Assembly (NCBI GenBank): GCA_021817185.1
Contig: JAKAVU010000048.1
Coordinates: forward strand, 1 to 12,160
Reading direction: 5' to 3'
Source: a bacterium
GTDB taxonomy: Bacteria > Chloroflexota > Dormibacteria > UBA8260 > Bog-877
Length of the DNA: 12,160 bases
The translations under genes and the position numbers were made by a program. Shown here piece by piece: positions 1 through 12,160 of this stretch (positions are counted from its first letter, which is position 1; every line of letters begins with the position of its first letter). The notes beneath the pieces were generated by a model, which was not told where the DNA came from, searched no databases, and worked only from the letters and a program-made list of their open reading frames with translations.

Positions 1-1
1 G

Positions 2-1219
2 TCGACCATCGGCAGCTTCTGGGTCGACACGGTCCGGGGACTGCTCTACATCCTGCTTCCGATCGCCTTTGTCGCCGGTCTCGTGTACGTCGCTCAGGGA
101 GCGGTTCAGACCTTGGCCGGCCCAGTCCTGGTCCACGACCCACTGAACGGGGTCACCCAGCTCATCCCGCTCGGCCCCGTCGGCTTCATGGAGGCGATCA
201 AGCAGCTGGGGACCAATGGTGGCGGCTTCTTCAACGCCAACGGCGCCGACCCGTTCGAGAACCCCACCGCCCTCACCAACTTCTTATCGATCGCGCTGCT
301 GCTGGCGATTCCGGTCGCGCTGACCTATACCTTCGGCCGCCTGGTGGGATCGCGCCGCCAGGGGGTGGCCCTGCTGGCAGCGATGGCCGTGATATTCGCG
401 ATCTGGACCTCCTTCACCACCTTGGCAGAGTCCCAGCCCAACCCGGCGGTCGCGGCTGCCGGCCTGATCCACCAGCCGACCGGGAACATGGAGGGCAAGG
501 AGGTACGCTTTGGCGCCCTAGATTCGGCGCTCTACGGAGTTGCGTCCACCCAGACCTCGACCGGATCGGCAGATGCCGCTTACGACTCCTTCAACCCGAT
601 GGGAGGGTTTGGACTGCTGACCGGGATGATGCTGGGTGAGGTGACCCCTGGGGGGGTCGGCAGCGGACTGTATACCATCCTCCTCGACGCCATCGTCGCG
701 GTGTTCATCGGGGGCCTGATGATCGGGCGAACCCCTGAGTACCTCGGCAAGAAGATTCAGGCCCGGGAGGTGAAGCTCGCCAGCCTTGGGGTTCTGGTCA
801 TGCCGATCACGGTGCTGGTCCTGACCGGCATCGCGACGACCCTGCCGGTCGGGCGGGCGGGAGCGTTCAACGCTGGGCCCCACGGGTTCACCGAGATCCT
901 CTACGCCTTCACCTCGCAGGCCAACAACAATGGGTCCGCGTTCGCGGGCTTGAACGGCAACACGCTCTTCTACAACGTGGCTGGCGGGATCGCCATGCTC
1001 CTCGGACGGTTCGGCATCATGGTCCCGGTTTTGGCGCTGGCCGGCTCGCTCGCCGCCAAGCCGCTGGTCCCGACCTCGGCCGGCACCTTCCGGACCGACG
1101 ACGTCATGTTCGTGGTGCTGCTGTTGGGAGTGATCGTCATCGTGGGCGGACTGACCTTCTTCCCGGCTGTGTCTCTGGGACCGGTGGTGGAGCAGCTCAG
1201 CCATGGGAGGTTCTTCTGA
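2..1219 (+). CDS. kdpA: KdpA, potassium-binding channel subunit of the Kdp ATPase (5' end outside window)
   Basis: KdpA is the membrane subunit of KdpFABC that selects and translocates K+, related to Trk/Ktr-type channels with four pore loops. The reading frame is open from the first full codon at position 2, so 405 C-terminal residues of a protein usually near 560 are present. The start and the first pore loop lie upstream. Seen directly are three later selectivity-filter regions: the GTNGGGFF loop (209-232) followed by a [10 protein letters not shown] stretch, the [13 protein letters not shown] loop (635-673) followed by the conserved [13 protein letters not shown] segment, and the [13 protein letters not shown] loop (about 914-952). 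Hydrophobic helices lie between them. The stop overlaps the kdpB start as TGATG, indicating translational coupling. Because the upstream region is missing, kdpF and the operon promoter cannot be assessed. The identification is very secure. Confidence 0.97.
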
Positions 1220-3288
1220 TGGGTCTTTTGAGCCCCATCGCCCGTCGGCGTTCGCCCGCCCACTCACCCCGCAGAGGGCCTCAGGCACGCGGCCTCTTCG
1301 ACCGCCGGATCCTCCGGCAGGCTGCTCTTGGGGCCGTCCTCAAGCTTGACCCCCGCGTGCAGATTCGCAATCCCGTGATGTTCGTGGTCGTGGTCGGAAC
1401 GGTGGTCACCCTGCTGGAGGCGGTGTTCCATCCCAACCTCTTCAGCTGGAGCATCACCATCTGGCTCCTGCTGACCGTCCTGTTTGCCAATTTCGCTGAA
1501 GCGGTGGCGGAGGGCCGCGGGAAGGCCCAGGCCGACGCACTCCGGCGCACCCGGTCCGACACCATGGCGCGCCGAGTGACCCGGGATGGCGCCGAGGACC
1601 ACGTCACCTCGGCCGAGCTTAGGCGCGGTGACCTGGTGGTCTGCGAAGCCGGGGACGTGATCCCCTCCGATGGGGAGATCCGTGAGGGCATCGCCTCCGT
1701 CGACGAGTCGGCGATCACCGGGGAGTCGGCCCCCGTGATCCGCGAGTCCGGGGGCGACCGTTCGGCCGTCACGGGTGGCACCAGGGTGCTCTCCGACCGC
1801 ATCGTGGTGGAGATCACCGCAGAGCGGGGCAACACCTTCATGGACCGGATGATCTCCCTGGTCGAGGGCGCCAACCGGCAGCGCACACCCAATGAAATCG
1901 CCCTCACGATTCTGCTGGCGGCGCTGACCATCGTCTTCTTGCCGGTGGTGGTGAGTCTGTATCCCTTCGCCCGGTATGCCGGCGGCTCGGTCTCCGTGGT
2001 AACGCTGGTGGCCTTGTTGGTGTGTCTCATCCCCACCACCATCGGGGCCTTGCTGTCGGCGATTGGGATCGCCGGCATGGACCGGATGGTCCAGCGCAAC
2101 GTGCTGGCCATGAGCGGTCGAGCGGTCGAAGCCGCCGGCGATGTGCAGACCCTCCTGCTCGACAAGACGGGCACGATCACCCTGGGCAACCGGATGGCCA
2201 GCGCCTTCATCCCGGTGGGGGGACACCAAGACCGTGAGCTGGCCCGTGCCGCCCTGCTGTCGTCCCTGGCCGATGAGACCCCGGAGGGGAGGTCCATCGT
2301 CACCCTGGCCCAAGACCGCTTCGAAGTCCACGAGAGCGCCCATCCCAGCGCGGCCACCTTCGTTCCCTTTTCCGCCACCACCAGGATGTCGGGAATCGAC
2401 AGGGAGGGGCGGCAGATCCGCAAGGGTGCGGCGGACGCGGTGCGCACGTGGGTCACCGAGCACGGTGGACGCATCCCCGTCGACCTTGAACCGATCGTGG
2501 CCGAGCTGGCACGGGCCGGGGCGACTCCGCTGGTGGTGGCCGACGGGCCGGAGATCCTGGGGGTGATCGAGCTCAAGGACGTGGTCAAGCCAGGGATCAA
2601 GGAGCGATTTGCCGAGCTGCGCAGCGCGGGAATCCGGACCGTGATGATCACCGGGGACAACCCCCTGACAGCGGCGGCCATCGCCGCGGAGGCGGGAGTG
2701 GACGACTACCTCGCAGAGGCGACTCCGGAGGCCAAGATGACGCTGATCCGCCAGGAGCAGACCGGCGGCAAGCTGGTGGCGATGACCGGTGACGGGACCA
2801 ACGACGCCCCGGCGCTGGCCCAGGCCGACGTCGGGCTGGCCATGAACACCGGCACCAACGCCGCCAAGGAGGCGGGCAACATGGTCGACCTCGACTCCAA
2901 CCCCACCAAGCTGATCGAGGTGGTCGAGGTCGGCAAGCAGCTGCTGATCACCCGGGGGGCGCTCACCACCTTCTCGATCGCCAACGACGTAGCCAAGTAC
3001 TTCGCTATCATCCCTGCGCTCTTCGCCGCCACCTATCCCCAGTTGGAGGCGCTCAACATCATGCGTCTTCACAGCCCTCAGAGCGCAGTGCTGTCGGCGG
3101 TCATCTTCAACGCGCTGGTGATCGTGGCGCTGATCCCGCTGGCGCTGCGGGGGGTGAGGTGGCGTCCATCGGGCTCGGCGGCGGTGCTGCGCCGAAACGT
3201 CCTGATCTACGGGGTGGGGGGACTCATCACCCCGTTCATCGGGATCAAACTGATCGACCTGCTGCTAACTGCAGCACATCTTTACTGA
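1219..3288 (+). CDS. kdpB: KdpB, P-type ATPase catalytic subunit of the K+ uptake pump
   Basis: KdpB hydrolyses ATP and drives K+ uptake through KdpA in the cytoplasmic membrane. The 689-residue length is normal for the family. Visible P-type ATPase signatures, in order, are the TGES actuator motif (residues 167-170), the phosphorylation motif DKTGTIT with D315 as the phosphorylated aspartate, the nucleotide-binding FSATTRMSG and KGA (K402) motifs, and the hinge TGDGTNDAP (523 onward). Membrane helices lie near residues 50-90, 225-280 and in the C-terminal 130 residues. The ATG at 1219 is chosen because GGGAGG at 1205-1210 lies 8 nt upstream and the start overlaps the kdpA stop. Long open frames on the opposite strand are mirror frames of this GC-rich gene. 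All catalytic motifs are intact, so the pump should be functional. Confidence 0.98.
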
Positions 3289-3291
3289 GGG
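3286..3291 (+). promoter_or_regulatory. Shine-Dalgarno sequence deciding the TTG start of kdpC
   Basis: TGAGGG spans the kdpB stop codon and lies 8 nt before a TTG at 3300. It supports a TTG start for kdpC. No ATG or GTG in this frame fits both the spacing and the family N-terminus. Confidence 0.7.
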
Positions 3292-3299
3292 CTGGCAAC

Positions 3300-3851
3300 T
3301 TGCTCACTGAACTGCGTCGGGCTGTGATCCTCGCTCTGGCGGCCCTGGTCGTGTTTGGCCTGGCCTATCCCCTGGTTGGGATCGGGCTCTCCCGAGCCCT
3401 CTTTCCGAGCCAGGCCCAGGGCTCGATCGGGCGCTACGGCTCTGCCCTGATCGGTCAGTCATGGAGCGGCAACCAGTGGTTCCATGGCCGTCCTGACGCC
3501 GACAACCCGCTCCAGGAGAATGGCCGGGCGGGGAGCTCGGGAGCCGCCAACCTGGGTCCGAGGTCGAAGGTGCTGGTGAACGATGTCCGCGAACTCATCC
3601 ATTACTGGCATGAGCGCGGGGTGAACCCCACCACCGATCTGGTGACCACGTCGGCCAGCGGGCTGGACCCGGACATCACCCCGGCCGACGCCATCGCCCA
3701 GATTCCCATGGTGTCGGCGGCAACCGGCATCTCCGCCCGAAGGCTGCGTGAGCTGATACGCGCCGAGACAACCGGACCGGAGCTGGGCTTTCTCGGCCCA
3801 GCCTATGTCAACGTGCTCGCGCTCAACGAGGCGCTGGCTCGCCTGCGCTGA
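3300..3851 (+). CDS. kdpC: KdpC, accessory subunit of the Kdp K+-transporting ATPase
   Basis: KdpC is a single-pass membrane protein that stabilises the KdpFABC complex and affects ATP affinity. From the TTG at 3300 the product is 183 residues, close to the family's usual 190 or so. It begins LTELRRAVILAL, and one N-terminal membrane helix covers about residues 8-30. Family landmarks seen are SWSGNQWFHGRPDAD, GAANLGPRSK, SASGLDPDITPADA and the C-terminal GFLGPAYVNVLALNEAL. A longer in-frame version from 3159 would overlap kdpB by about 130 bp and add a non-family N-terminus, so it is not used. The gene follows kdpB by 11 bp and is surely part of the kdpABC operon. Its last 29 bp overlap the end of the convergent kdpD-like gene. 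Confidence 0.95.
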   Translation: MLTELRRAVILALAALVVFGLAYPLVGIGLSRALFPSQAQGSIGRYGSALIGQSWSGNQWFHGRPDADNPLQENGRAGSSGAANLGPRSKVLVNDVRELIHYWHERGVNPTTDLVTTSASGLDPDITPADAIAQIPMVSAATGISARRLRELIRAETTGPELGFLGPAYVNVLALNEALARLR

Positions 3852-6090
3852 CCGCCGCCGGCAACAGGGTGCGCCCCAATATGTGAATGTCCGTGTCCTT
3901 GGCGAGCCGGATGACCTCGAAGGCGACTGATCGCTCCCAGGGCAGGCGGTGCCGGACCCGCGGGGCGGGCATGATGAGGGTCGTCACCTGATGGGACTCA
4001 GCCCACCCAACCAAGGTCGCCGCCACCGTACCGCTGCGCGGCAGCGGTACCAGTGCCACTCCGTTCTTGGCTGCGAGCCGCGAGAGCTCCTCCACCGCTC
4101 TTGCCTCCCTCTGGTCGGGCCGCGGCTGAGTGACCGTGACCAGCGACAGCTCCGCGTCCTCGCGTCTGGCCATGGTGAGACCGGCTTCCAGCAGCTGGGC
4201 CGCCAGATCCACCCGCTCCGGGCGCATGGCAACTGCAATCCGCTCCTGAACCGCCCATAGCGTCCTGATGGAGTTGGTGGCGATGTAGCGCTGCAGGCGC
4301 TGCTCGGTGTGCCGGGCCACCAACCTCAAGGTGGCATCACGCAGGTCTCCGAGGAGTTCCTCCCGGTAGGCAGACAGGGCTCCCGCCACCTCGTCAGGGG
4401 GCACGATCCACCCGGCTCGCACCCTCTCCCGCAGCTCGGCGGGAGGGATATCGACCAGCTCGATCTCGTCGGCCTGGTCCAGAATGCGGCTTGGCACTGA
4501 GCCCGTCAGCCCATGGTGCTGGTCGCGCAAGGCCTCCAACTGACCTCGAGCAATTTCAAACCCGGGCAGGTCGATGACGCCGATCGTGCCCACGACGTTG
4601 ATGCCCGCTGCCAGCAATCGCTGGACCTGGAGGTAGCGCGGCTCATGAGTCTCCAGGTCCCGCACCGACAGGTCGTCAACGCACGCGACGCTGGGGTTGC
4701 TGCGCAGCACCGCATCCACGTCGACGGCGCCCGTGGGCAGCGCCGGAATCTGGCGCAGTCGGCTGAGCAGGACCTGGACTGCGGCCCGCCCCCGACCCCC
4801 GACGGCGGCGACCACCACCTCAGCCCCGCGGCGCTGGCGGCGGCTTGCCTCCTCCAGCATCCGGGTGGTCTTGCCGACCCCGGGCGCGTACCCGATGTAC
4901 AGCCGCAGCGACCCCTGGGTTCCGCGCCTGGCCTCCCGCTGGAGGATCGCCGCCGGATCCGGGCGCGCATCCCCCGATCCCGCAGAGACTGCCCCCAGCC
5001 GCCGACCAATGACGTGCAGATGGCGGTCGTTGAGCTCCTCGAGCAGCCGCGCGAGCAGCGCCTGCTGGCGCGACCCAGGTCGACTGCCGGCAGGAGCCGC
5101 GAGCATGATGTGGGTGGCCTCGGAACGTTCGATCTCAGCGGCAATCGCCGCCACCGAGCCGGTGTCAGAGCAGGCTCTGTAGGTGGCGCCCAGGTCCTCT
5201 GCGAGGCGGGCGGCCTCTGCGAGCGCCTCAGTCCCATGGCCGGGCTCGCCCACCGCCATGACCTCGACCGGGGCCGACAGCCGTCGACCCATCCGCACCC
5301 CTCGGCGGATCAGACCCAGTGCGGTGGCATCGGCGGCCGCGACGATGAGAACCCGGTCGAGCGCCTGGCTCGGGGCCGCCGCGACGCTCCGGGCCTGCCG
5401 GTGCTGGACTGTGTAGAGAAGCGCCAACTCGCGCAGGGCCGCCAGATTCCCCTCCCGGAAGAAGCTGTTCAGGGCCACCTCGACCCGCTCTGGAGGATAG
5501 ATGTTCCCGTGGCGCATGCGCTTGCGCAGCGCTTCAGGGGTGATGTCAGCTAGGCGTAGCTCGGACGCGCTTTGGAGCACAAAGTCGGGCACGGTCTCCC
5601 GGACGGAGACCCCCGTCACCTGCTCCACCACATCGCGCAGGCTCTCGATGTGCTGAATGTTCACGGTGGTCCACACGTTGACCCCACCGTCGAGCAAGGC
5701 CTCGACGTCCTGCCAGCGTTTGGCGTGACACATTCCAGGCACGTTGGTGTGGGCCAGCTCATCGACCAGCGCCAGCTCCGGGCGGCGCTCAAGCGTCGCC
5801 TCCAGATCCATCTCCTCGACCTCAATGCCCCGGTACACCACCTTGAGCGGAGGAATCCGCTCAAGGCCGTCGAGCGCCTCCTCCGTGAGCGGTCGGCCGT
5901 AAGTCTGCACCCATGCCACCACCACGTCGGTCCCAGTGGTCAGCTCGCGGCGCCCCTCCTCCAACATCGAATACGTCTTGCCAACTCCGGGCGCGGATCC
6001 CAGGAACACGGTCAGCGTCCCCCGGCCCGCCACCTTCCCACGCCGTGGGACCGTCGCTGCCGGCTGGGCCGGCGTCATCCCAGAGGGCAC
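3823..6090 (-). CDS. kdpD: Tandem-duplicated KdpD cytoplasmic sensor protein without kinase domain
   Basis: The KdpD N-terminal domain and its USP-like domain form the cytoplasmic ATP/ligand-sensing half of the K+ sensor kinase KdpD. This 755-residue protein has that half twice and nothing else. Copy 1 has Walker A GSAPGVGKT (31-39), the Walker B-like VDELAHTN (109-116), NIQHIESL (144-151), and a USP-like segment at about 245-362. Copy 2 has Walker A GYAPGVGKT (400-408), VDDLSVRD (471-478), DEIELVDIPP (541-550), and a USP-like segment at about 608-742 ending in HILGR. I see no membrane helices, HisKA or HATPase. The GTG start is chosen for the strong SD upstream. The protein is convergent with kdpC (29-bp overlap) and divergent from a separate histidine kinase with the KdpD membrane domain, so it probably regulates that kinase in trans. 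Motif decay in copy 2 suggests the two copies differ in function. The family is certain; the role in trans is inference. Confidence 0.92.
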   Translation of the reverse strand: MPSGMTPAQPAATVPRRGKVAGRGTLTVFLGSAPGVGKTYSMLEEGRRELTTGTDVVVAWVQTYGRPLTEEALDGLERIPPLKVVYRGIEVEEMDLEATLERRPELALVDELAHTNVPGMCHAKRWQDVEALLDGGVNVWTTVNIQHIESLRDVVEQVTGVSVRETVPDFVLQSASELRLADITPEALRKRMRHGNIYPPERVEVALNSFFREGNLAALRELALLYTVQHRQARSVAAAPSQALDRVLIVAAADATALGLIRRGVRMGRRLSAPVEVMAVGEPGHGTEALAEAARLAEDLGATYRACSDTGSVAAIAAEIERSEATHIMLAAPAGSRPGSRQQALLARLLEELNDRHLHVIGRRLGAVSAGSGDARPDPAAILQREARRGTQGSLRLYIGYAPGVGKTTRMLEEASRRQRRGAEVVVAAVGGRGRAAVQVLLSRLRQIPALPTGAVDVDAVLRSNPSVACVDDLSVRDLETHEPRYLQVQRLLAAGINVVGTIGVIDLPGFEIARGQLEALRDQHHGLTGSVPSRILDQADEIELVDIPPAELRERVRAGWIVPPDEVAGALSAYREELLGDLRDATLRLVARHTEQRLQRYIATNSIRTLWAVQERIAVAMRPERVDLAAQLLEAGLTMARREDAELSLVTVTQPRPDQREARAVEELSRLAAKNGVALVPLPRSGTVAATLVGWAESHQVTTLIMPAPRVRHRLPWERSVAFEVIRLAKDTDIHILGRTLLPAAVSAGEPAPR

Positions 6091-6408
6091 TAACGGTCCC
6101 TCCTCCGCTCAGCGCGAAGCCGCACCGCCGGGCGGGTGAGAGCTACGAAATGAGAATCGCGGGCTGCCGCGTGCACGCGACCATCATGATCGGTTTCCCA
6201 GATCGAGGGCGCTCGGTCTGATCCGGGCGCACCCGGGTCCCACCCGAACCCGGTGGTGGGAGCCGCGCTCCGAAGCTCGACCACTCTCGCCAGGGCTGGG
6301 GCCGTTGGACGCTGACCAGCGCTGCCCGCGCTCCTGCTGAGCGTTGATGGGAGCGCTCGGACAAGCGGAGTATCGCTCGTTCTCAGCTTGCTACGATCGG
6401 AACCGAAC
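6091..6408. promoter_or_regulatory. Divergent control region between the KdpD-like gene and the histidine kinase
   Basis: No gene is supported in these 318 bp. They lie between divergent starts and so must carry promoters for both sides, unless transcription comes from further away. On the plus strand TACGAT (6392-6397) is a plausible -10 element ending 11 nt before the kinase ATG, which would give a leader of only a few bases. No convincing -35 was found. A perfect 7-bp inverted repeat, TCCCACC (6238-6244) with GGTGGGA (6255-6261), lies mid-region and could be a hairpin or an operator, for example for KdpE. AGCGCT palindromes recur near 6320 and 6351. The assignments are by eye. Confidence 0.4.
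6097..6106 (-). promoter_or_regulatory. Strong Shine-Dalgarno for the kdpD-like gene
   Basis: On the minus strand GGAGGAGGGA lies 6 nt upstream of the GTG at 6090. This supports the GTG over the in-frame ATG four codons later, and suggests efficient translation. Confidence 0.75.
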
Positions 6409-7656
6409 ATGGTGCAGCTGATTCCGCATTCTCTGCGCCGGAGAGCTGCGGGCGCGATCCGTCCGGTCGATGAGCCGGGCGCGTCACGATGGCGCGTCGT
6501 CCTGGGGCTCGTCCTCACCCTGGCCGCGGTGACCCTCCTCACGGCCCTTCTCAAGGCCCTGCGCCTGCCCGACCATACCCAAACGTACGAGTTCATCTAT
6601 CTCGCCGTGGTCGTGGCGGCTGCGGGGGTCTACGGGTTCCCAGCAGCAATGGCGGGCTCGCTTGCGTCGGCCTTGGCCGTCGACTACTTCTTTCTACCTC
6701 CGGTGGGCCGCCTCACCATCTACTCCACCACTGAGACCTTGGCCTGGGTCGCGTTCCTCCTGGTGTGTCTGGCGGTGGCCGGGCTCACGAATGCTCGCCG
6801 CCGCCACCTGCTGAGGCTGCGGGCGGCAACCGCGCAACTGAGAGCAAGCAACCTCGAGCTGCGCGCCGCCGAGGCGGAGTTGGAGAAGAGCATCGCCGCT
6901 CGGACTGAACTGGCCCGCACCGAAGCGGCCTTGGCCGCGACCCGGCGGGCGGAGGCCTTTCGGCGCGAGCTCCTGGCGACTGTCAGCCATGAGCTGAGAA
7001 CTCCGCTGTCAAGCTTGCTCGGATACAGCACCGCCCTGTCGGACGCAGACTGGCATAACCAGCGCTGGCGCGAGTATCCACAGCTCATCGCTGCGGAGGC
7101 GCGACGGATGAACCGCCTGTTGGACGATCTGTTGGAGATGGCGAGAATCGACACCGGGCAGGTGCACATCGAGACCCAGGTGATGGATCTGGGAGATGCC
7201 GCTAAGGAGGCGGCCCAGCGCTGGGCTCGGACGCTGGATCTGCAGGTGACTGTTCCGTCGAGCCCCACTCTGGTGATAGCCGACTGGCAGCGCGTCCAGC
7301 AGGTGCTGGACAACGCGCTGCGGAACGTGGAGCTCCATTCAGGCCAGACGCGGGCCGACATCGCGGTGCGGGAGGCGCCTCCTTACCGGCGCACCGCCAC
7401 CGAGTTGGTCGTGCGAGATCACGGGCACGGAATCGCCCCGGAGGTCCGGGATCGCCTCTTCCAGAGGTACGCGTCCGCCTCAGAGGGCGGCCTTGGCCTG
7501 GGGCTCGCCGTCAGCCGCGGCCTGACCGAGGCGATGGGGGGCGCGCTGTGGATCGACCACGCGCCCGACTCGGGAGTGCAGTTTCACCTCATGCTCCCCC
7601 GCCCTTCACAAGCGGCGGAGCCAGAAGCGGTGCCCGCACTTCTGGCATCACCATGA
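6409..7656 (+). CDS. KdpD-type membrane histidine kinase lacking the N-terminal KdpD/USP module
   Basis: This is a sensor histidine kinase that should phosphorylate the KdpE-type regulator encoded immediately downstream. From the ATG at 6409 it has 415 residues. The N-terminus holds four membrane helices in about 110 residues with the VDYFFLPPVGRLTI signature of the KdpD membrane domain (DUF4118-like). A charged, probably coiled-coil linker (about 130-185) follows, then the HisKA H-box SHELRTPLSS with H194. The ATPase core has an N-box with N302 (DNALRN), a G1 box DHGHGI (D337) and a G2 box GGLGLGL. Full KdpD proteins are near 850-900 residues and carry the sensor half at their N-terminus; here that half is encoded separately and divergently. 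A TTG at 6388 would add 7 residues and is possible; neither start has a clear SD. The stop overlaps the kdpE start by 4 bp (ATGA). Kinase identity is secure, and the assignment to Kdp rests on the membrane domain and neighbours. Confidence 0.93.
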   Translation: MVQLIPHSLRRRAAGAIRPVDEPGASRWRVVLGLVLTLAAVTLLTALLKALRLPDHTQTYEFIYLAVVVAAAGVYGFPAAMAGSLASALAVDYFFLPPVGRLTIYSTTETLAWVAFLLVCLAVAGLTNARRRHLLRLRAATAQLRASNLELRAAEAELEKSIAARTELARTEAALAATRRAEAFRRELLATVSHELRTPLSSLLGYSTALSDADWHNQRWREYPQLIAAEARRMNRLLDDLLEMARIDTGQVHIETQVMDLGDAAKEAAQRWARTLDLQVTVPSSPTLVIADWQRVQQVLDNALRNVELHSGQTRADIAVREAPPYRRTATELVVRDHGHGIAPEVRDRLFQRYASASEGGLGLGLAVSRGLTEAMGGALWIDHAPDSGVQFHLMLPRPSQAAEPEAVPALLASP

Positions 7657-8393
7657 GCGGAGTTCCGTCGGGGGCATCCGTGCTGGTTGTCGAGGACGAC
7701 CCCGGCATGAGTCGATTTCTGATCGATACGCTGGAGTCGGCCGGATACCGCACGCTCAAAGCGGAGGATGGGAAGGCCTGCCTGAGAGCCCTGGGGAGCA
7801 GTGCGGTGGACATGCTGATTCTCGACCTGGGGCTGCCGGACATCGATGGGATGGACTTGCTGCGCACCATCCGGCAGTGGGAGCAGACGCCGCTCATCCT
7901 GGTCGTCAGTGCCCGGGGACAGGAGGCCGACAAGGTGTCGGCCCTGCGCGCCGGCGCCGACGACTACATTGCCAAGCCCTTCGGGGTTCAGGAGCTCTTG
8001 GCCCGGCTCGAGGCTCGTTTGCGCCGCCAGCCCCGCTCGGAGTTCGATGCTCCGATCGACCTGGGGAGGGTGCGCGTTGACCTTGCGGCCAGCCAGGCAG
8101 TGGTAGATGGGCAGCCGGTGCGTCTGACACCGATGGAGAAGGGAGTCCTTCAGGACCTTGCCCGCCACCGTGGTCGCGTGCGCACCCACCGCGAGATCCT
8201 GGCAGCGGTCTGGGGTCCTTCCTATACGGCGGAACACGCGTACGTCCGCACCATCATCCAGCGCCTGCGCGCCAAATTGGAAGAGGAGCCGGAGGCTCCG
8301 CGGCTCCTGCTCACAGTGCCCGGGGTTGGGTACCTGCTGCAGGGACAGATCGCGGCCGTCGGCCCCGGAGACGCGCACGCTGAGCCACACTGA
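7653..8393 (+). CDS. kdpE: KdpE, OmpR/PhoB-type response regulator of the kdp operon
   Basis: KdpE is the DNA-binding partner of KdpD and activates kdp transcription when phosphorylated. The 246-residue product has a receiver domain (about 9-125) with acidic pair D15/D16, phospho-acceptor D58 in LILDLGLP, S86 and K108 in AKPF. A winged-helix DNA-binding domain follows at about 136-230, with LTPMEKGVL, HREILAAVWG, HAYVRTIIQRLRAKLE and GVGYLL. The ATG at 7653 is chosen because it starts just before the receiver fold and overlaps the kinase stop as ATGA. There is no separate SD, so translation is probably coupled. An upstream in-frame extension lies inside the kinase gene and is not used. The final dozen or so residues (AAVGPGDAHAEPH) are a non-conserved tail. 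The target is presumably the kdpABC promoter, which lies outside the window. Confidence 0.95.
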   Translation: MSGVPSGASVLVVEDDPGMSRFLIDTLESAGYRTLKAEDGKACLRALGSSAVDMLILDLGLPDIDGMDLLRTIRQWEQTPLILVVSARGQEADKVSALRAGADDYIAKPFGVQELLARLEARLRRQPRSEFDAPIDLGRVRVDLAASQAVVDGQPVRLTPMEKGVLQDLARHRGRVRTHREILAAVWGPSYTAEHAYVRTIIQRLRAKLEEEPEAPRLLLTVPGVGYLLQGQIAAVGPGDAHAEPH

Positions 8394-9018
8394 CGGCTAA
8401 CTTGAACTCTGGACCGATCATCTGTCCCGGAACGCCCGGCTGATTGCGGTCGGCGCTGGGGCACCCGCATTCAACTGGACGGGCTCGATTTGGCCCGGCT
8501 CGTCTGCTGTGAGTAGTTGTCCCGGCGAGCTAATCGGTTGGAGCCGCCTGCTGGACAAACTCAGCAGGCGAGCATGCGCCAACCCCAGCCGCTCACTCGT
8601 GTTGGCCACCAGTGCTTACTTTGACCTGGCCACTGGCAGCAGGACTCGACCCCATGTCTCAAGCCCCACCCCTGATCTTCGGCCATGACCCCGAGCAGCC
8701 GTGGCGATACCCCGGTCTTCGAACAGCCGCCGCTCAAACTCGGTCTGCCGCTCGTGCTGTCCCGGCAGCGTCCTTCCTGGGAAGGCTGGTAGGAGCCACC
8801 TGGTCGCACCGAACGCGAAGGATCTCCGAGCCAACCGACCCCGGCGCCAGCTGTAGGTAGCGGGACTGGACGGGAACAGCTTCGGCAAGGACTGGCACCG
8901 GGGCCCTCCTGTCGATCGCGTAGCCGGCTGCTACCGGACCCCGGTGCGCAGCGCCAGCTCCGTCAACTCCGCCCCACTTCCGGGCGTGCTGTTGCCTGCG
9001 CGCCATCACAGCCGCGGC
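8394..9018. other. Gene-free stretch between kdpE and the SRPBCC gene
   Basis: Short open frames exist on both strands of these 625 bp, but none has a recognisable domain, a good start signal and consistent codon use together. I find no tRNA and no convincing promoter. The clearest structure is a hairpin at 8545-8570. A weaker CCAGTG/CACTGG inverted repeat lies at 8609-8636 inside a repeated TGGCCAC motif. The stretch may be a decayed gene whose frame I cannot recover. The convergent arrangement of kdpE and the SRPBCC gene means no promoter is required here. Confidence 0.5.
8545..8570. other. Perfect 9-bp hairpin downstream of kdpE
   Basis: CGCCTGCTG and CAGCAGGCG pair perfectly around the 8-nt loop GACAAACT. 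No T-tract follows on either strand. It could be an atypical terminator between the convergent kdpE and SRPBCC genes, or an mRNA-stability element, but it lies about 150 bp past the kdpE stop. Confidence 0.35.
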
Positions 9019-9540
9019 TCAGTCGGTGCTGGTCGCGGGCTGGTCCCCAGAGCGCTCCAGCAGTTCAGCCAGGCGCTCCAAAGTCCTTGCCATGTTGGCC
9101 CTGGTCTTGGCCGGGAGGCCGAACAGCTGCAGGAATGGGCGCTGCCGATCCTCGGAGATATCCCAGGTCTCCTTGACCAGGGTACCGCCATCCACGGGGG
9201 TCAGCTCGTACCGCCAGACGCGACCACCGACCAGATGGCCGATGGGCGGGGGCGCCGTGGTTCGCCACGCAATTCGGCGGCTCTCCTCGTACTCGATCAC
9301 GGTGTTCATCATTGAGTACGGAAGCCCCATTTGCATCTTCATGCCGAAGCTGGCCCCACTGTTGAGACGATGGAGGCCGCTCACCTTTGGAGCCTTCACA
9401 GAGCCAGACCCGTCGATGTCCGGATGGCGTCGCGGATCGGCCAGGACTGCGAAGATGGCCGCCGGTGAAGCGGGGATCAGGCGTTCGACCGTTACCCGGT
9501 AGCGGTTAGCCGATTGCGTCGCGGGTCCGGTGTTGCTCAT
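9019..9540 (-). CDS. SRPBCC-fold protein (polyketide cyclase/dehydrase-like)
   Basis: The 173-residue product resembles the SRPBCC (START-like) fold, which binds hydrophobic ligands in a deep cavity. It shows the typical opening VTVERLIPASPAAIFAVLADP, with strand-helix-strand order, then RIAWRTTAPP, VWRYELTPVDGGTLVKETWD, and a long C-terminal amphipathic helix (TRANMARTLERLAELLE). The ligand and role cannot be told; many actinobacterial paralogues are of unknown function. The ATG at 9540 is chosen because the domain starts shortly after it. The frame runs on upstream without a stop, but that extension shows no domain and overlaps the ABC relic. On the minus strand CATACT (9552-9547) ends 6 nt before the ATG, which would suit a leaderless mRNA; no SD is present. 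It is cytoplasmic, with no signal peptide. Confidence 0.85.
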   Translation of the reverse strand: MSNTGPATQSANRYRVTVERLIPASPAAIFAVLADPRRHPDIDGSGSVKAPKVSGLHRLNSGASFGMKMQMGLPYSMMNTVIEYEESRRIAWRTTAPPPIGHLVGGRVWRYELTPVDGGTLVKETWDISEDRQRPFLQLFGLPAKTRANMARTLERLAELLERSGDQPATSTD

Positions 9541-9579
9541 GGTGCCAGTATGCGCCGAGCGCTCATTGCCCCTCGATCG

Positions 9580-9860
9580 CCAATGCAGGCGCCGCTGAGG
9601 CTCACCTCCGCCCTCCTCAGCAACCCGGAGCTGGCCATCCTCGGCGAGCCCACCTCGGACCTCGACCCGTGGGCCGGCACCACGCCCGAACCGCCCTCCG
9701 TAGCCTGTTCGATCGCGGCCGGGCGATCTTCCGCAACTCCTACCTGCTCGGCAAGCCTGAACACCTTTGCGATCCGGTGGTGATGATCTTGTGGGGACGC
9801 CTGATGCCCGCCGGCGCCATCGTGGAGGCGAACGGGAGGAGAGAGCTGGTCTACGATGAT
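9580..9860 (+). pseudogene. Relic of an ABC-transporter ATPase, C-terminal half, frameshifted
   Basis: Two frames together read as the second half of an ABC ATPase of the drug/lantibiotic-export type. Frame one (about 9580-9669) gives LRLTSALLSNPELAILGEPTSDLDP, matching the region from after the signature motif through Walker B and the D-loop. Frame two (from about 9669) gives GRHHARTALRSLFDRGRAIF, then the switch region as NSYLLGKPEHLCD, then ILWGRLMPAGAIVE. Restoring one base near 9668 would rejoin them as LDPVGRHH. The Walker B aspartate is Gly (ILGEP for ILDEP), the switch histidine is Tyr (NSYLL for SSHLL), and Walker A and most of the signature motif are absent. It cannot be a working ATPase. 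The remnant starts just upstream of, and in the same direction as, the VOC-DUF302 gene. A related relic follows that gene. Confidence 0.75.
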
Positions 9861-9902
9861 GGTGCCGCAGCAAGCCACGGCACAGCGCGAGATCGAGCTG
9901 TA

Positions 9903-9912
9903 GAGGAAGAGG
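9903..9912 (+). promoter_or_regulatory. Shine-Dalgarno of the VOC-DUF302 gene
   Basis: The purine-rich GAGGAAGAGG lies 7 nt before a GTG at 9920 and supports that start codon. No ATG in the frame is close by. Confidence 0.65.
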
Positions 9913-9919
9913 CATACGC

Positions 9920-10753
9920 GTGGAGGATGCGGGCTTCTTTGGCATCGGTCACGTCGATTTGTCGGTCTCCGACGTCGAGGTGAGCGCTACCTGGTACGAG
10001 CACGTGCTCGGGCTGCGGCGCCTACGGCGGACGGACTTTCCCGAGCGCACCATGATCGTGCTGCGCCACGACGCCTCAGGTCTCGTGGTCGGGCTCAACC
10101 AGCATCGGGGGTTCCACGGGGGGCCCTTCGACGAGCGCCGCGCCGGGCTGGACCACGTTGGCTTCGCCGTGGGCCGGCGTCAGGATCTCTATGTCTGGCA
10201 GGAGCGTCTGGCGGCGCTCGATGTCGAGCACTCGCCGGTGGCTGACACCGAGGTTGGCTCCGCGCTCGTCTTCAGAGATCCCGATCACATCCAGCTCGAA
10301 CTGTGGTGGTCCAAGTCCGCCGGGGACGCTTCGGCACCGCTGCCCGCTGATCGTGGCGTCGTCGAGCGCTCGAGCCCGCTCCCCGTCGACGAGGCGGTCC
10401 GCCGGCTCGCCGACGCGGTCACGGCTGCCGGCGCCACGGTGTTTGCCATCATCGACCATGCCGCCGGTGCACGGTCGGTCGGCCTAAACATGCCCGAGGC
10501 CAAGGTGTTGATCGTCGGCAACCCGGCTGCGGGGACGCCGGCGATGCTCGCCGCCCCTGACCTCGCCCTCGAGCTTCCGACCCGCCTCCTCGTCCGTCAG
10601 GCGTCCCGGGGCGCCTCGGGGAGCACGGTCCTCTTCTCCGACCCGACCGCCCTCGCTCGTCGCTACAGGCTCAACTCCGAGCAGGTGGCCGGCCTGGTCG
10701 GCCTGGTCTCGCTGGTCGACCGTGCGCTCGGGGGAGCGTCTGATGAGGAGTGA
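9920..10753 (+). CDS. VOC (glyoxalase/dioxygenase-like) domain fused to DUF302
   Basis: This 277-residue protein has two domains. Residues about 6-131 form a VOC module: GIGHVDLSVSDVEVSATWYEHVLG at the start, LDHVGFAV mid-way and FRDPDHIQLELWW at the end. H11, H79 and E127 sit at usual metal-ligand positions. Residues about 150-255 match DUF302: FAIIDHAAGARSVGLNMPEAKVLIVGNPAAGTPAM, then LPTRLLVRQ and FSDPTALARRYRLN. VOC enzymes include glyoxalases, extradiol dioxygenases and antibiotic-resistance proteins. DUF302 has no agreed function; it is also found in stand-alone proteins. The linker (132-150) is short and polar. The GTG start is set by the SD just upstream. No signal peptide or membrane segment is seen, so it is cytoplasmic. 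The gene is intact although ABC-ATPase relics flank it on both sides, suggesting selection for its function. The substrate is unknown. A sequencing-error fusion is unlikely because the frame is continuous. Confidence 0.88.
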   Translation: MEDAGFFGIGHVDLSVSDVEVSATWYEHVLGLRRLRRTDFPERTMIVLRHDASGLVVGLNQHRGFHGGPFDERRAGLDHVGFAVGRRQDLYVWQERLAALDVEHSPVADTEVGSALVFRDPDHIQLELWWSKSAGDASAPLPADRGVVERSSPLPVDEAVRRLADAVTAAGATVFAIIDHAAGARSVGLNMPEAKVLIVGNPAAGTPAMLAAPDLALELPTRLLVRQASRGASGSTVLFSDPTALARRYRLNSEQVAGLVGLVSLVDRALGGASDEE

Positions 10754-10887
10754 TCAGTGCATCGCAGGTCGTGATGCATCGCCCCAACGACCTGCTCTCG
10801 GCACATCGCGGCGAACGGCATGAGCCGATGAGGGCCGTCCCGACCACCGCCGTGGTCGCTGCCGGGCCGGCGGCGATCGCCGCGGCC

Positions 10888-11136
10888 GGCGAAGGCAACC
10901 CGGAGCCGGTCATACTCGGCGGGCCCGCCTCATTCCTTGAGCCCGTCGGCCGGCACCACACCCGGACCTTCATCCGGACCATGCGCGGCCGGGCTGTACG
11001 GTCTTCCTCAACTTCCAACCGCTGAGTGATGTCGATCGGGTCTGCGGCCGGGTGGCGGCGATCTCGCGCGGACGCCTGATGGCTTCAGGCGCCTTCAAGG
11101 ATCTTCTCGGTCCCAACGCGGTACACGCGGTTCGCG
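10888..11136 (+). pseudogene. Second relic of an ABC-transporter ATPase, C-terminal end, frameshifted
   Basis: Frame one (about 10888-10992) reads GEGNPEPVILGGPASFLEPVGRHHTRTFIRTMRGR, the Walker B and D-loop region of an ABC ATPase. The frame then shifts, and from 11001 another frame reads VFLNFQPLSDVDRVCGRVAAISRGRLMASGAFKDLLGPN, the switch region to the C-terminus. Walker B is ILGGP instead of ILDEP, and the switch motif is NFQPLS where NSHLLS is expected. Nothing of Walker A is recoverable upstream. The 5' part (10754-10887) has no recognisable homology. The relic is co-directional with the VOC-DUF302 gene, starting about 135 bp after it, and resembles the relic at 9580-9860. Past 11136 nothing is recognised until the toxin-antitoxin promoter. 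Confidence 0.72.
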
Positions 11137-11227
11137 AGTTACCGATGCGTGCAGCATGGCCGCGGTTCGGCGGTTGGTCGGGAAAGACCCACTGGGTGAA
11201 CTTCGCGTCCCATAGCCAGTGGCTTGT

Positions 11228-11253
11228 TGGTACCAAAGTGGTATCATCAGATC
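11228..11253 (+). promoter_or_regulatory. Promoter and operator-like repeat of the toxin-antitoxin operon, probably leaderless
   Basis: TATCAT (11242-11247) is a good -10 element lying exactly 6 nt before the antitoxin ATG, so transcription would start at or next to the start codon. No SD is present. An inverted repeat TACCA (11231-11235)/TGGTA (11239-11243) with a 3-bp centre overlaps the -10. The same stretch also contains direct repeats TGGTAC and TGGTAT spaced 11 bp apart. This is the pattern expected for ribbon-helix-helix antitoxin dimers binding on one DNA face. No clear -35 was found. Confidence 0.55.
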
Positions 11254-11460
11254 ATGGCCATGACAGTCCGCACCGACCCGGAGATGGAGCGGGCCTTGAC
11301 AGCGCTGGCTCAGGCCGAGGGCGCCTCCCGGCAGGAGGTCATCCGCCGAGCCGTGCTGGATCGCTACGAGCGGCACGGTCACCGTGCCCGTGTGGGAGCC
11401 AGCACAGAGAGACTAGCAAGCCGCTGGGAAGACGTCATCGAGCGGTTAGGCCGCGTGTGA
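11254..11460 (+). CDS. Ribbon-helix-helix (CopG-type) antitoxin
   Basis: This 68-residue protein starts MAMTVRTDPEMERALTALA, a beta-strand and first helix typical of ribbon-helix-helix repressors. The second helix, ASRQEVIRRAVLDRYERH, follows. The C-terminal half (about 40-68) is polar and probably wraps the toxin. Such antitoxins neutralise their toxin and repress their own operon by binding short repeats in the promoter; a matching repeat lies just upstream. The ATG at 11254 is chosen from the promoter spacing; a second ATG two codons on is possible, and an upstream in-frame extension would cover the promoter. The stop overlaps the toxin start by 4 bp (GTGA). Toxin pairing is inferred from this overlap. 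Confidence 0.85.
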   Translation: MAMTVRTDPEMERALTALAQAEGASRQEVIRRAVLDRYERHGHRARVGASTERLASRWEDVIERLGRV

Positions 11461-11837
11461 CCGATGTCGAGTACCTGGACCTCGAGGACCTGCTGGGGCT
11501 GACCCGAGCTCTAGGGGCCGGACCTGTTCGCGATCTGGGCCTCCTTGACTCAGCGGCTGCCCGGCCGCGGTCCAACGCCTTCGGAGAGAACGCCTACCCA
11601 AGCCTCGATCTCAAAGCGGCGGCGCTGCTCCATTCGATCGCCCGGAATCACGCCTTGGTCGACGGCAACAAGCGCCTGGCCTGGCTAGCGACGGTGGTCT
11701 TTCTGGATTTGAACGACCAGACCCCGGATCTCGATGACGACGCAGCCTTCGACCTGGTCATGGACGCTGCTCAGGGCACCGTGGAAGTCGAGGAGATCGC
11801 GGCGCGACTCCGTGTCGTTCGGACCAGCGCGAGTTGA
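11457..11837 (+). CDS. doc: Doc/Fic-family toxin
   Basis: Doc toxins are small Fic-fold enzymes; phage P1 Doc phosphorylates elongation factor EF-Tu and stops translation. The 126-residue product equals the length of P1 Doc. It has the N-terminal YLDLEDLLGLTRAL helix, the RPRSNAFGENAYPSLDLKAAALLHSIARN segment, and the catalytic motif H65-A-L-V-D69-G-N-K-R73, all key residues present. A C-terminal LDLN...DD region and helix follow. The GTG at 11457 overlaps the antitoxin stop (GTGA), so the pair is translationally coupled. The frame is open further upstream through the antitoxin, its promoter and part of the ABC relic, but that is chance. P1 Doc pairs with the antitoxin Phd; here the partner is a ribbon-helix-helix protein, which also occurs in Doc modules of actinobacteria. 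The target in this host is not known. Confidence 0.9.
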   Translation: MTDVEYLDLEDLLGLTRALGAGPVRDLGLLDSAAARPRSNAFGENAYPSLDLKAAALLHSIARNHALVDGNKRLAWLATVVFLDLNDQTPDLDDDAAFDLVMDAAQGTVEVEEIAARLRVVRTSAS

Positions 11838-12160
11838 AACCACGTGCCCCTCGTCAGAGGCCTTTCTTGCAGGCATGCTGTACGCCGCGCACCAAACCTC
11901 GTCGTGGGAGCAGAATCGCAAGCAACTCGCTCCAACCGCGCTGCGCCGCCGATCTGGGTTGAGCTCCGAGCACCCTCCTGTCAAGCTGGTGGGGATCTTC
12001 CCCAACTCCGCCTCCGTGCTCCGCCTGGCCACCAAGGCCCAACATGGCCGCCATCCCACATTGGAATCCAGTCAGCCGCTAACCTCGGTGCCCCGCCGGC
12101 GTGCGGCTTCGCTGCCGCACACGTTCCGACGCCGACCCGGGTGAATCGAAGTGGACCGCA
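11838..12160. other. Region after the toxin gene with no intact gene
   Basis: Apart from the transposase-like fragment, these 323 bp show no gene with domain support. A GTGCGGC/GCCGCAC hairpin (12101-12120, 7-bp stem, loop TTCGCT) lies near the right edge. It has no T-tract and may belong to a mobile-element end or to a gene outside the window. Confidence 0.4.
11965..12054 (+). pseudogene. Fragment resembling the C-terminus of an IS256-family transposase
   Basis: The frame reading HPPVKLVGIFPNSASVLRLAT (about 11971-12033) resembles the conserved C-terminal GIFPN(E/D)AS..RL motif of IS256-family (mutator-type) transposases. The expected following EQ.DEW segment is lost, and the sequence becomes unrelated after about 12035. 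Nothing upstream resembles the DDE core. The match is a single short motif, so confidence is moderate. Confidence 0.5.

Follow-up and report, generated by a model that had tools for sequence, protein, structure and literature searches.

The KdpD domain (PF02702) of Escherichia coli KdpD was reported in 2024 to be an atypical serine kinase (ASK) that inhibits the potassium pump KdpFABC by acting on the serine of the KdpB TGES motif (PMC11018627). According to that paper, mutation of Walker A (G36/K37/T38), or of W39 together with R190, nearly abolishes phosphorylation of KdpB S162, and D109A and E110A abolish KdpB phosphorylation; arrangements in which the ASK and the histidine kinase (HK) are split onto separate chains are described as well (section 8 names no tandem, and words for a duplicated, double or repeated KdpD are absent from the main text). 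Soluble proteins with a single KdpD domain and a universal stress protein (USP) domain but no HK are represented by the short KdpD/Usp proteins (profile NF038185, KdpD_non_kinase, 373 positions; DgKdpD of Deinococcus geothermalis), while tandem-type USPs (UspE 5cb0, 3loq and TTHA0350) pack two USP domains together in one chain. The USP domain of Staphylococcus aureus KdpD was found to be mainly monomeric, and the monomer or dimer state of USP domains in multidomain proteins was posed as a question (PMC8214093). Here we analyzed 12,160 nucleotides of a Dormibacteria genome (GCA_021817185.1, contig JAKAVU010000048.1, positions 1 to 12,160; hereafter "the window") in which a gene beside kdpABC encodes a tandem KdpD-USP-KdpD-USP protein.

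Like E. coli KdpD, the tandem protein adjoins kdpABC and has, in its first unit, a KdpD domain with Walker A and B motifs, the stacking aromatic and the counterpart of R190, followed by a USP-fold domain; unlike in E. coli, the membrane and HK part is a separate gene and the module occurs twice, with the catalytic Glu and the aromatic missing from the second copy. It shares a soluble KdpD-USP organization without HK with the short KdpD/Usp proteins, but has two units rather than one and stayed below their profile's cut-off (449.2 bits over two stretches; cut-off, 550). With the tandem-type USPs it shares a predicted packing of two USP domains, although each of these is preceded by a P-loop KdpD domain, one of which lies between the USPs in sequence. 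We read the tandem, with a probability of roughly 0.6, as a covalent ASK/pseudo-ASK pseudo-dimer that controls the Kdp pump and supplies the soluble part of a split KdpD.

Two KdpD-USP units, one with a degenerate catalytic site

The tandem open reading frame (positions 3823 to 6090, minus strand, as for all its features below) encodes 755 residues. PF02702 (curated cut-off, 26.1 bits) matched the chain twice; tested separately, the units scored 293.2 bits (unit 1; residues 23 to 227; positions 5410 to 6024) and 147.8 bits (unit 2; residues 392 to 594; 4309 to 4917). Self-alignment of the two halves (381 columns, 31%) scored 365, compared with 44.5 ± 7.8 for 200 shuffles. After each KdpD domain comes another (residues ∼244 to 364, positions 4999 to 5361; residues ∼612 to 743, positions 3862 to 4257) that has a USP fold in the AlphaFold model, its sequence match falling under the Pfam Usp cut-off (21.5 bits for unit 2; cut-off, 24). 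No Pfam match to HisKA, HATPase or DUF4118 was found within the chain, and the KdpD sensor histidine kinase profile NF007793 gave 354 bits against a cut-off of 1123. An earlier note on this DNA, made from the sequence alone, had proposed two KdpD-plus-USP units in one chain without a membrane or histidine kinase part, as these results confirm. Its description of the protein as "kinase-less" is apt for the histidine kinase, but not beyond it, since in E. coli serine kinase activity resides in the KdpD domain itself (PMC11018627).

To classify the units, we used the residues given for the E. coli ASK (Walker A Lys/Thr, the aromatic next to them, Walker B Asp-Glu and Arg190; PMC11018627), with numbering confirmed against the K-12 sequence. 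Unit 1 carries every one of them (K38, T39, Y40, D110, E111 and R191): its Walker A motif GSAPGVGKT (residues 31 to 39; positions 5974 to 6000) is followed by the aromatic Y40, equivalent to E. coli W39, and its Walker B pair D110-E111 (5758 to 5763) corresponds to D109/E110. Unit 2 keeps K407, T408, D472 and R556, but its Walker A motif GYAPGVGKT (residues 400 to 408; positions 4867 to 4893) is followed by the non-aromatic T409, and its Walker B pair (4672 to 4677) has D473 where the catalytic Glu is expected. With the catalytic Glu and the adenine-stacking aromatic both gone, unit 2 is probably inactive as a kinase and would best be described as a diverged pseudo-ASK.

These residue states extend to the relatives. 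A protein search gave 6478 matches, the best 120 of which were 703 to 775 residues long and aligned over at least 91% of the query. The window's protein was aligned with 119 of these (P0002, near-identical to it, was omitted), giving 120 tandem proteins that, as best matches to the window, sample its side of the family. Unit 1 was almost invariant (Lys in 119, aromatic in 119, Asp in 120, Glu in 119 and Arg in 120; one row was gapped at the Lys and aromatic positions). In unit 2, Asp and Arg were present in all 120, Lys in 24, Glu in 43 and the aromatic in none, so that no protein combined Lys, aromatic and Glu there. The P-loop Lys of unit 2 was confined largely to close relatives, occurring in 22 of the 23 proteins with at least 50% identity to the window's (itself included; the 23rd has Arg) and in 2 of the 97 below that level. 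Unit 2 was also the more variable, with a mean identity of 0.54 versus 0.68 for unit 1. The earlier note's PGVGKT in both units thus describes the window and its clade but not the family, in which unit 2 mostly lacks the P-loop Lys, and its suggestion of two equivalent Walker sites is contradicted by T409 and D473.

In the AlphaFold (AF2) model of the window's protein, the part covering unit 2 is confident and the two USP domains are paired as in tandem-type UspE. The model and its match to UspE favor an internal (pseudo-)dimer, one of two possibilities raised in the earlier note. An ArsA-like arrangement, with the two P-loops face to face, was unsupported (weak Foldseek rows only, with a root-mean-square deviation near 27 Å).

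The kdp locus as a split KdpD

On the plus strand, convergent with the tandem gene, lie kdpA (positions 2 to 1219; TIGR00680; 5′ end beyond the window), kdpB (1219 to 3288; TIGR01497, 1067 bits), in which the TGES loop is kept (ITGESAPVI), and kdpC (3159 to 3851; PF02669), whose 3′ end overlaps the tandem gene. Beyond the tandem gene and divergent from it come a separate DUF4118-HisKA-HATPase_c histidine kinase (6388 to 7656, plus strand; Pfam; likely start, ATG at 6409) and an OmpR/KdpE-type response regulator (7548 to 8393, plus strand; Pfam), the first residues of whose frame are probably untranslated. As DUF4118 with HisKA/HATPase makes up the C-terminal half of KdpD, the locus reads as a split KdpD, with ASK and HK on different chains and the soluble N-terminal half doubled within one of them. 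The kinase frame has 422 residues, with DUF4118 ending at 143 and HisKA starting at 192; by these boundaries, a GAF domain cannot fit between the two. Rfam gave no RNA match in the window at gathering score, and a promoter and terminator scan of positions 3700 to 6500 returned nothing informative.

Relatives and distribution

Where an organism was given for the best 120 of the 6478 matches, it was a Dormibacterota or Chloroflexota metagenome-assembled genome, with Candidatus Angelobacter appearing once; the window's nearest rows in the tree were L002 and L003 (Candidatus Dormiibacterota). Scanning genome contigs with unit 2 yielded 78 loci, 27 of which encode the tandem in one frame. The window's gene order (kdpABC, tandem, divergent HK) recurred in 8 of these 27, with the response regulator in 7 of the 8, and in another arrangement, found in 7 of the 27, a separate HK is convergent with the tandem. 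The tandem was preceded by a full-length KdpD and KdpE at three loci (L005, L006 and L011) and fused to an ABC ATPase at five.

L005 is a contig of the same bin as L002 (LSA5.bin69), and L006 and L011 both belong to a second bin, so that only two genomes lie behind the three loci with a full-length KdpD. One of these two also holds L002, the window's closest relative, and since L005 is in that same bin, the window's organism may carry a second kdp locus besides this one. In the full-length KdpD of all three loci the conserved stretch after the DELAH motif is eroded, whereas unit 1 of the tandem retains it; this pattern would fit a serine kinase job handed over to the tandem.

The earlier note had taken a single unit as the norm for short KdpD proteins and, by implication, the tandem as a rarity. 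Surveys with PF02702 (E 1e-10 or better, counted by hand in the class of the L003 genome) rule that out. In that class, 46 of 110 genomes searched had the domain: 30 of the 46 encode a one-frame tandem, 7 carry two adjacent units that differ in frame (clearly in 4, less clearly in 3), and the other 9 show either one match or matches split between contigs, several of these at contig ends. Among 151 genomes drawn from the corresponding phylum, 48 were above the cut-off and 6 had one-frame tandems. Sampling 121 genomes in the class of Paenibacillus glycinis (Bacilli) gave 41 with PF02702 and 16 with a one-frame tandem; a sample of 120 in the phylum of a Novosphingobium genome (Pseudomonadota) gave 38 and none, respectively. 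In the order of a further genome (G016), PF02702 matched in 104 of 121 genomes. Databases name many tandem proteins "histidine kinase" or "sensor histidine kinase KdpD", although their chains match the tandem over its full length and the two tandem chains that we scanned showed no histidine kinase domain.

The ABC fusions come from Actinomycetota (L015, L020, L022, L027 and L048; e.g., L048, positions 2252 to 5731, plus strand) and are 1160 to 1272 residues long. ABC_tran and AAA_assoc_C were seen in 3 of the 5, and in none of their units do the P-loop Lys and the catalytic Glu occur together. kdpABC was not in the stretch examined of these loci; kdpA lies elsewhere in all five genomes. A BPD_transp_1 permease is upstream of the L027 fusion. 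Four of the five were placed in the tree, with unit 2 inside the window's unit 2 clade.

A mirror image in Bacillota, and the number of duplications

A search with the Bacillota tandem of L058 gave 6153 matches, the best 120 of which (771 to 820 residues) came from Paenibacillus, Bacillus, Priestia, Neobacillus, Brevibacillus, Cohnella and others, often under the names "universal stress protein" or "histidine kinase" where a name was given. These Bacillota tandems (for example, in Paenibacillus, Priestia and Neobacillus) have the same KdpD-USP-KdpD-USP order, a similar length and the same predicted USP pairing (model of the Paenibacillus durus protein), but their damage is in the first unit rather than the second. 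Unit 2 is intact at the ASK residues in 120 of 120, whereas unit 1 keeps the Lys, Tyr, D109 and R190 positions and has Glu110 in only 4 of 120, the replacements being Gly (55), Ala (28), Asp (13), Val (10), Ser (7) and Asn (3).

In some Bacilli neither unit is damaged. Five genomes of the P. glycinis class (G318, G285, G347, G369 and G270) have two PF02702 matches of ∼300 bits in one frame, and both units were canonical in all four loci examined from them (L110, L111, L112 and L114), three of which are directly after kdpABC and the fourth (L112) after kdpC. G270 has a second tandem (L113, positions 3445 to 5592, plus strand) with both units degenerate and devoid of Walker motifs. Among the window's relatives, L097, L100, L101 and L102 encode the two units in separate genes whose stop and start codons overlap as ATGA, placed after kdpB-kdpC in L097, L100 and L102. 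By residue state, the forms found thus read as active plus active, active plus pseudo, pseudo plus active, both degenerate and two-gene. A Terriglobia locus (L070, positions 6889 to 10079, plus strand) carries two neighboring genes of KdpD type, and Walker B is damaged in the first.

The tree, built from 93 selected units, placed the unit 2 rows of three groups (the window's relatives, the two-gene loci and the ABC fusions) in a single clade of 27 (support, 100/99), apart from the Bacillota units. Unit 1 fell into two sets, which had the same members as the two main unit 2 sets, a pattern to be expected had the two units been inherited together. The mirrored site loss suggests that the Dormibacterota and Bacilli tandems may have originated independently. 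Four clade tests on a quick 94-unit tree were uninformative, since the constrained trees outscored the free tree. An approximately unbiased (AU) test, run on 63 rows of the 94 after removal of 31 that included the two longest branches (LG+F+R4, a single search each), rejected all four unit sets (D1, D2, B1 and B2) as one clade (P = 0.0055); it did not reject D1+D2 (0.214), B1+B2 (0.617), both together (0.17), D2+B1 (0.377), D2+B2 (0.166) or D1+B1 (0.246). Single and several duplications would both be compatible with these values.

Proposed function and rival explanations

From the domain content, residue states, distribution and gene order observed, and from the modelled USP pairing, we infer a serine kinase activity, its target and its gating as follows. 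Unit 1, as a KdpD-type ASK, most likely has the serine of the KdpB TGES loop as its target, and phosphorylation there would shut the KdpFABC pump once potassium suffices. Unit 2 is probably an inactive pseudo-ASK that may still hold nucleotide in the window's clade. The two USP domains would pack together as in UspE, making the chain a covalent pseudo-dimer. Gating of unit 1 would fall to unit 2 and the USP pair, the latter probably carrying the signal; the neighboring DUF4118 histidine kinase and KdpE-like regulator would do the transcriptional half of the job.

Several observations weigh against this reading. The E. coli residue E110 was changed to Ala (PMC11018627), not to the Asp found in unit 2 of the window, and unit 2 keeps the catalytic Glu in 43 of the 120 relatives. 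The TGES serine is present in 47 of 51 listed KdpB open reading frames whatever the KdpD architecture (the other 4 are fragments), so it is consistent with KdpB as target but does not discriminate. Only the length and range of the aligned superpositions underlie the USP pairing, and the P. durus model is weak overall (predicted template modelling score, 0.44). Some Bacilli tandems keep both sites, so a pseudo-unit would not be needed for the architecture. As to the signal, the two c-di-AMP-binding serines of S. aureus KdpD (Ser244 and Ser246) are replaced by A252 and D254 in the window, a placement that rests on a profile match to 7ji4, and c-di-AMP is not claimed as the input. Ser occupies the first of these positions in 96 of the 120 aligned proteins, and a diadenylate cyclase was found in 16 of 19 genomes searched, including 15 of 16 tandem carriers (absent from G005).

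The tandem could instead be a sensor subunit in trans that binds the neighboring DUF4118 kinase and sets its kinase/phosphatase balance, by analogy with the action of the N-terminal domain of E. coli KdpD on the C-terminal half, with serine kinase activity minor or absent. A separate kinase without a KdpD domain does adjoin the tandem in 15 of the 27 loci (L002 to L079), and all 15 align with the window's kinase through DUF4118 (into it in the truncated L009 and in L077). A study by Heermann from 2000, going by its title, reportedly showed complementation between two halves of E. coli KdpD, which we also counted toward this explanation. We nonetheless consider it unlikely, as the ASK residues are strictly conserved in unit 1, no such kinase was found in the stretch examined of four tandem loci (L052, L054, L058 and L064), and the tandem stands beside a full-length KdpD in L005, L006 and L011. 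A two-input sensor, in which both units bind ATP and act while each USP reads a different ligand, seems less probable again: GKT is kept in both P-loops of the window and some Bacilli tandems downstream of kdpABC have two canonical units, but among the 120 aligned proteins unit 2 never has the aromatic at the adenine position, lacks the catalytic Glu in 77, and almost always loses the P-loop Lys once identity to the window's protein drops below 50%. The greater variability of unit 2 might point to a neutral duplication in decay, yet the unit retains invariant residues and a confident model, and its clade of 27 spans relatives, two-gene loci and ABC fusions, indicating that unit 2 is old; we regard decay as very improbable.

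Returning to the pseudo-dimer, a broader version can be put forward only tentatively, and we would not favor it over its negation: tandem KdpDs as a class of bacterial serine kinase/pseudokinase pairs, each a covalent pseudo-dimer held together by a UspE-like USP pair, with one ASK active and the other turned into a regulator that holds nucleotide, the two roles falling to opposite units in Dormibacterota and Bacilli. If this is true, single-unit KdpD would be expected to act as a USP-mediated homodimer. Nature offers tandems that have lost the site of the first or of the second unit, tandems that retain both sites, and pairs divided between two genes; together they make the USP dimer question directly testable with soluble proteins and provide ready-made single-site variants. 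No description of tandem KdpD was found in searches of the open PMC literature, where "KdpD-KdpD" occurred only as a construct and primer name. The parts are known; as far as these searches tell, the tandem with one putatively disabled unit is widespread and undescribed in that literature.

Other genes in the window

Beyond the kdp locus, the window encodes a 308-residue protein with Polyketide_cyc2 in its C-terminal half (positions 9019 to 9945, minus strand), a glyoxalase domain fused to DUF302 (9920 to 10753, plus strand) and a Fic/DOC family protein (PF02661; 11052 to 11837, plus strand).
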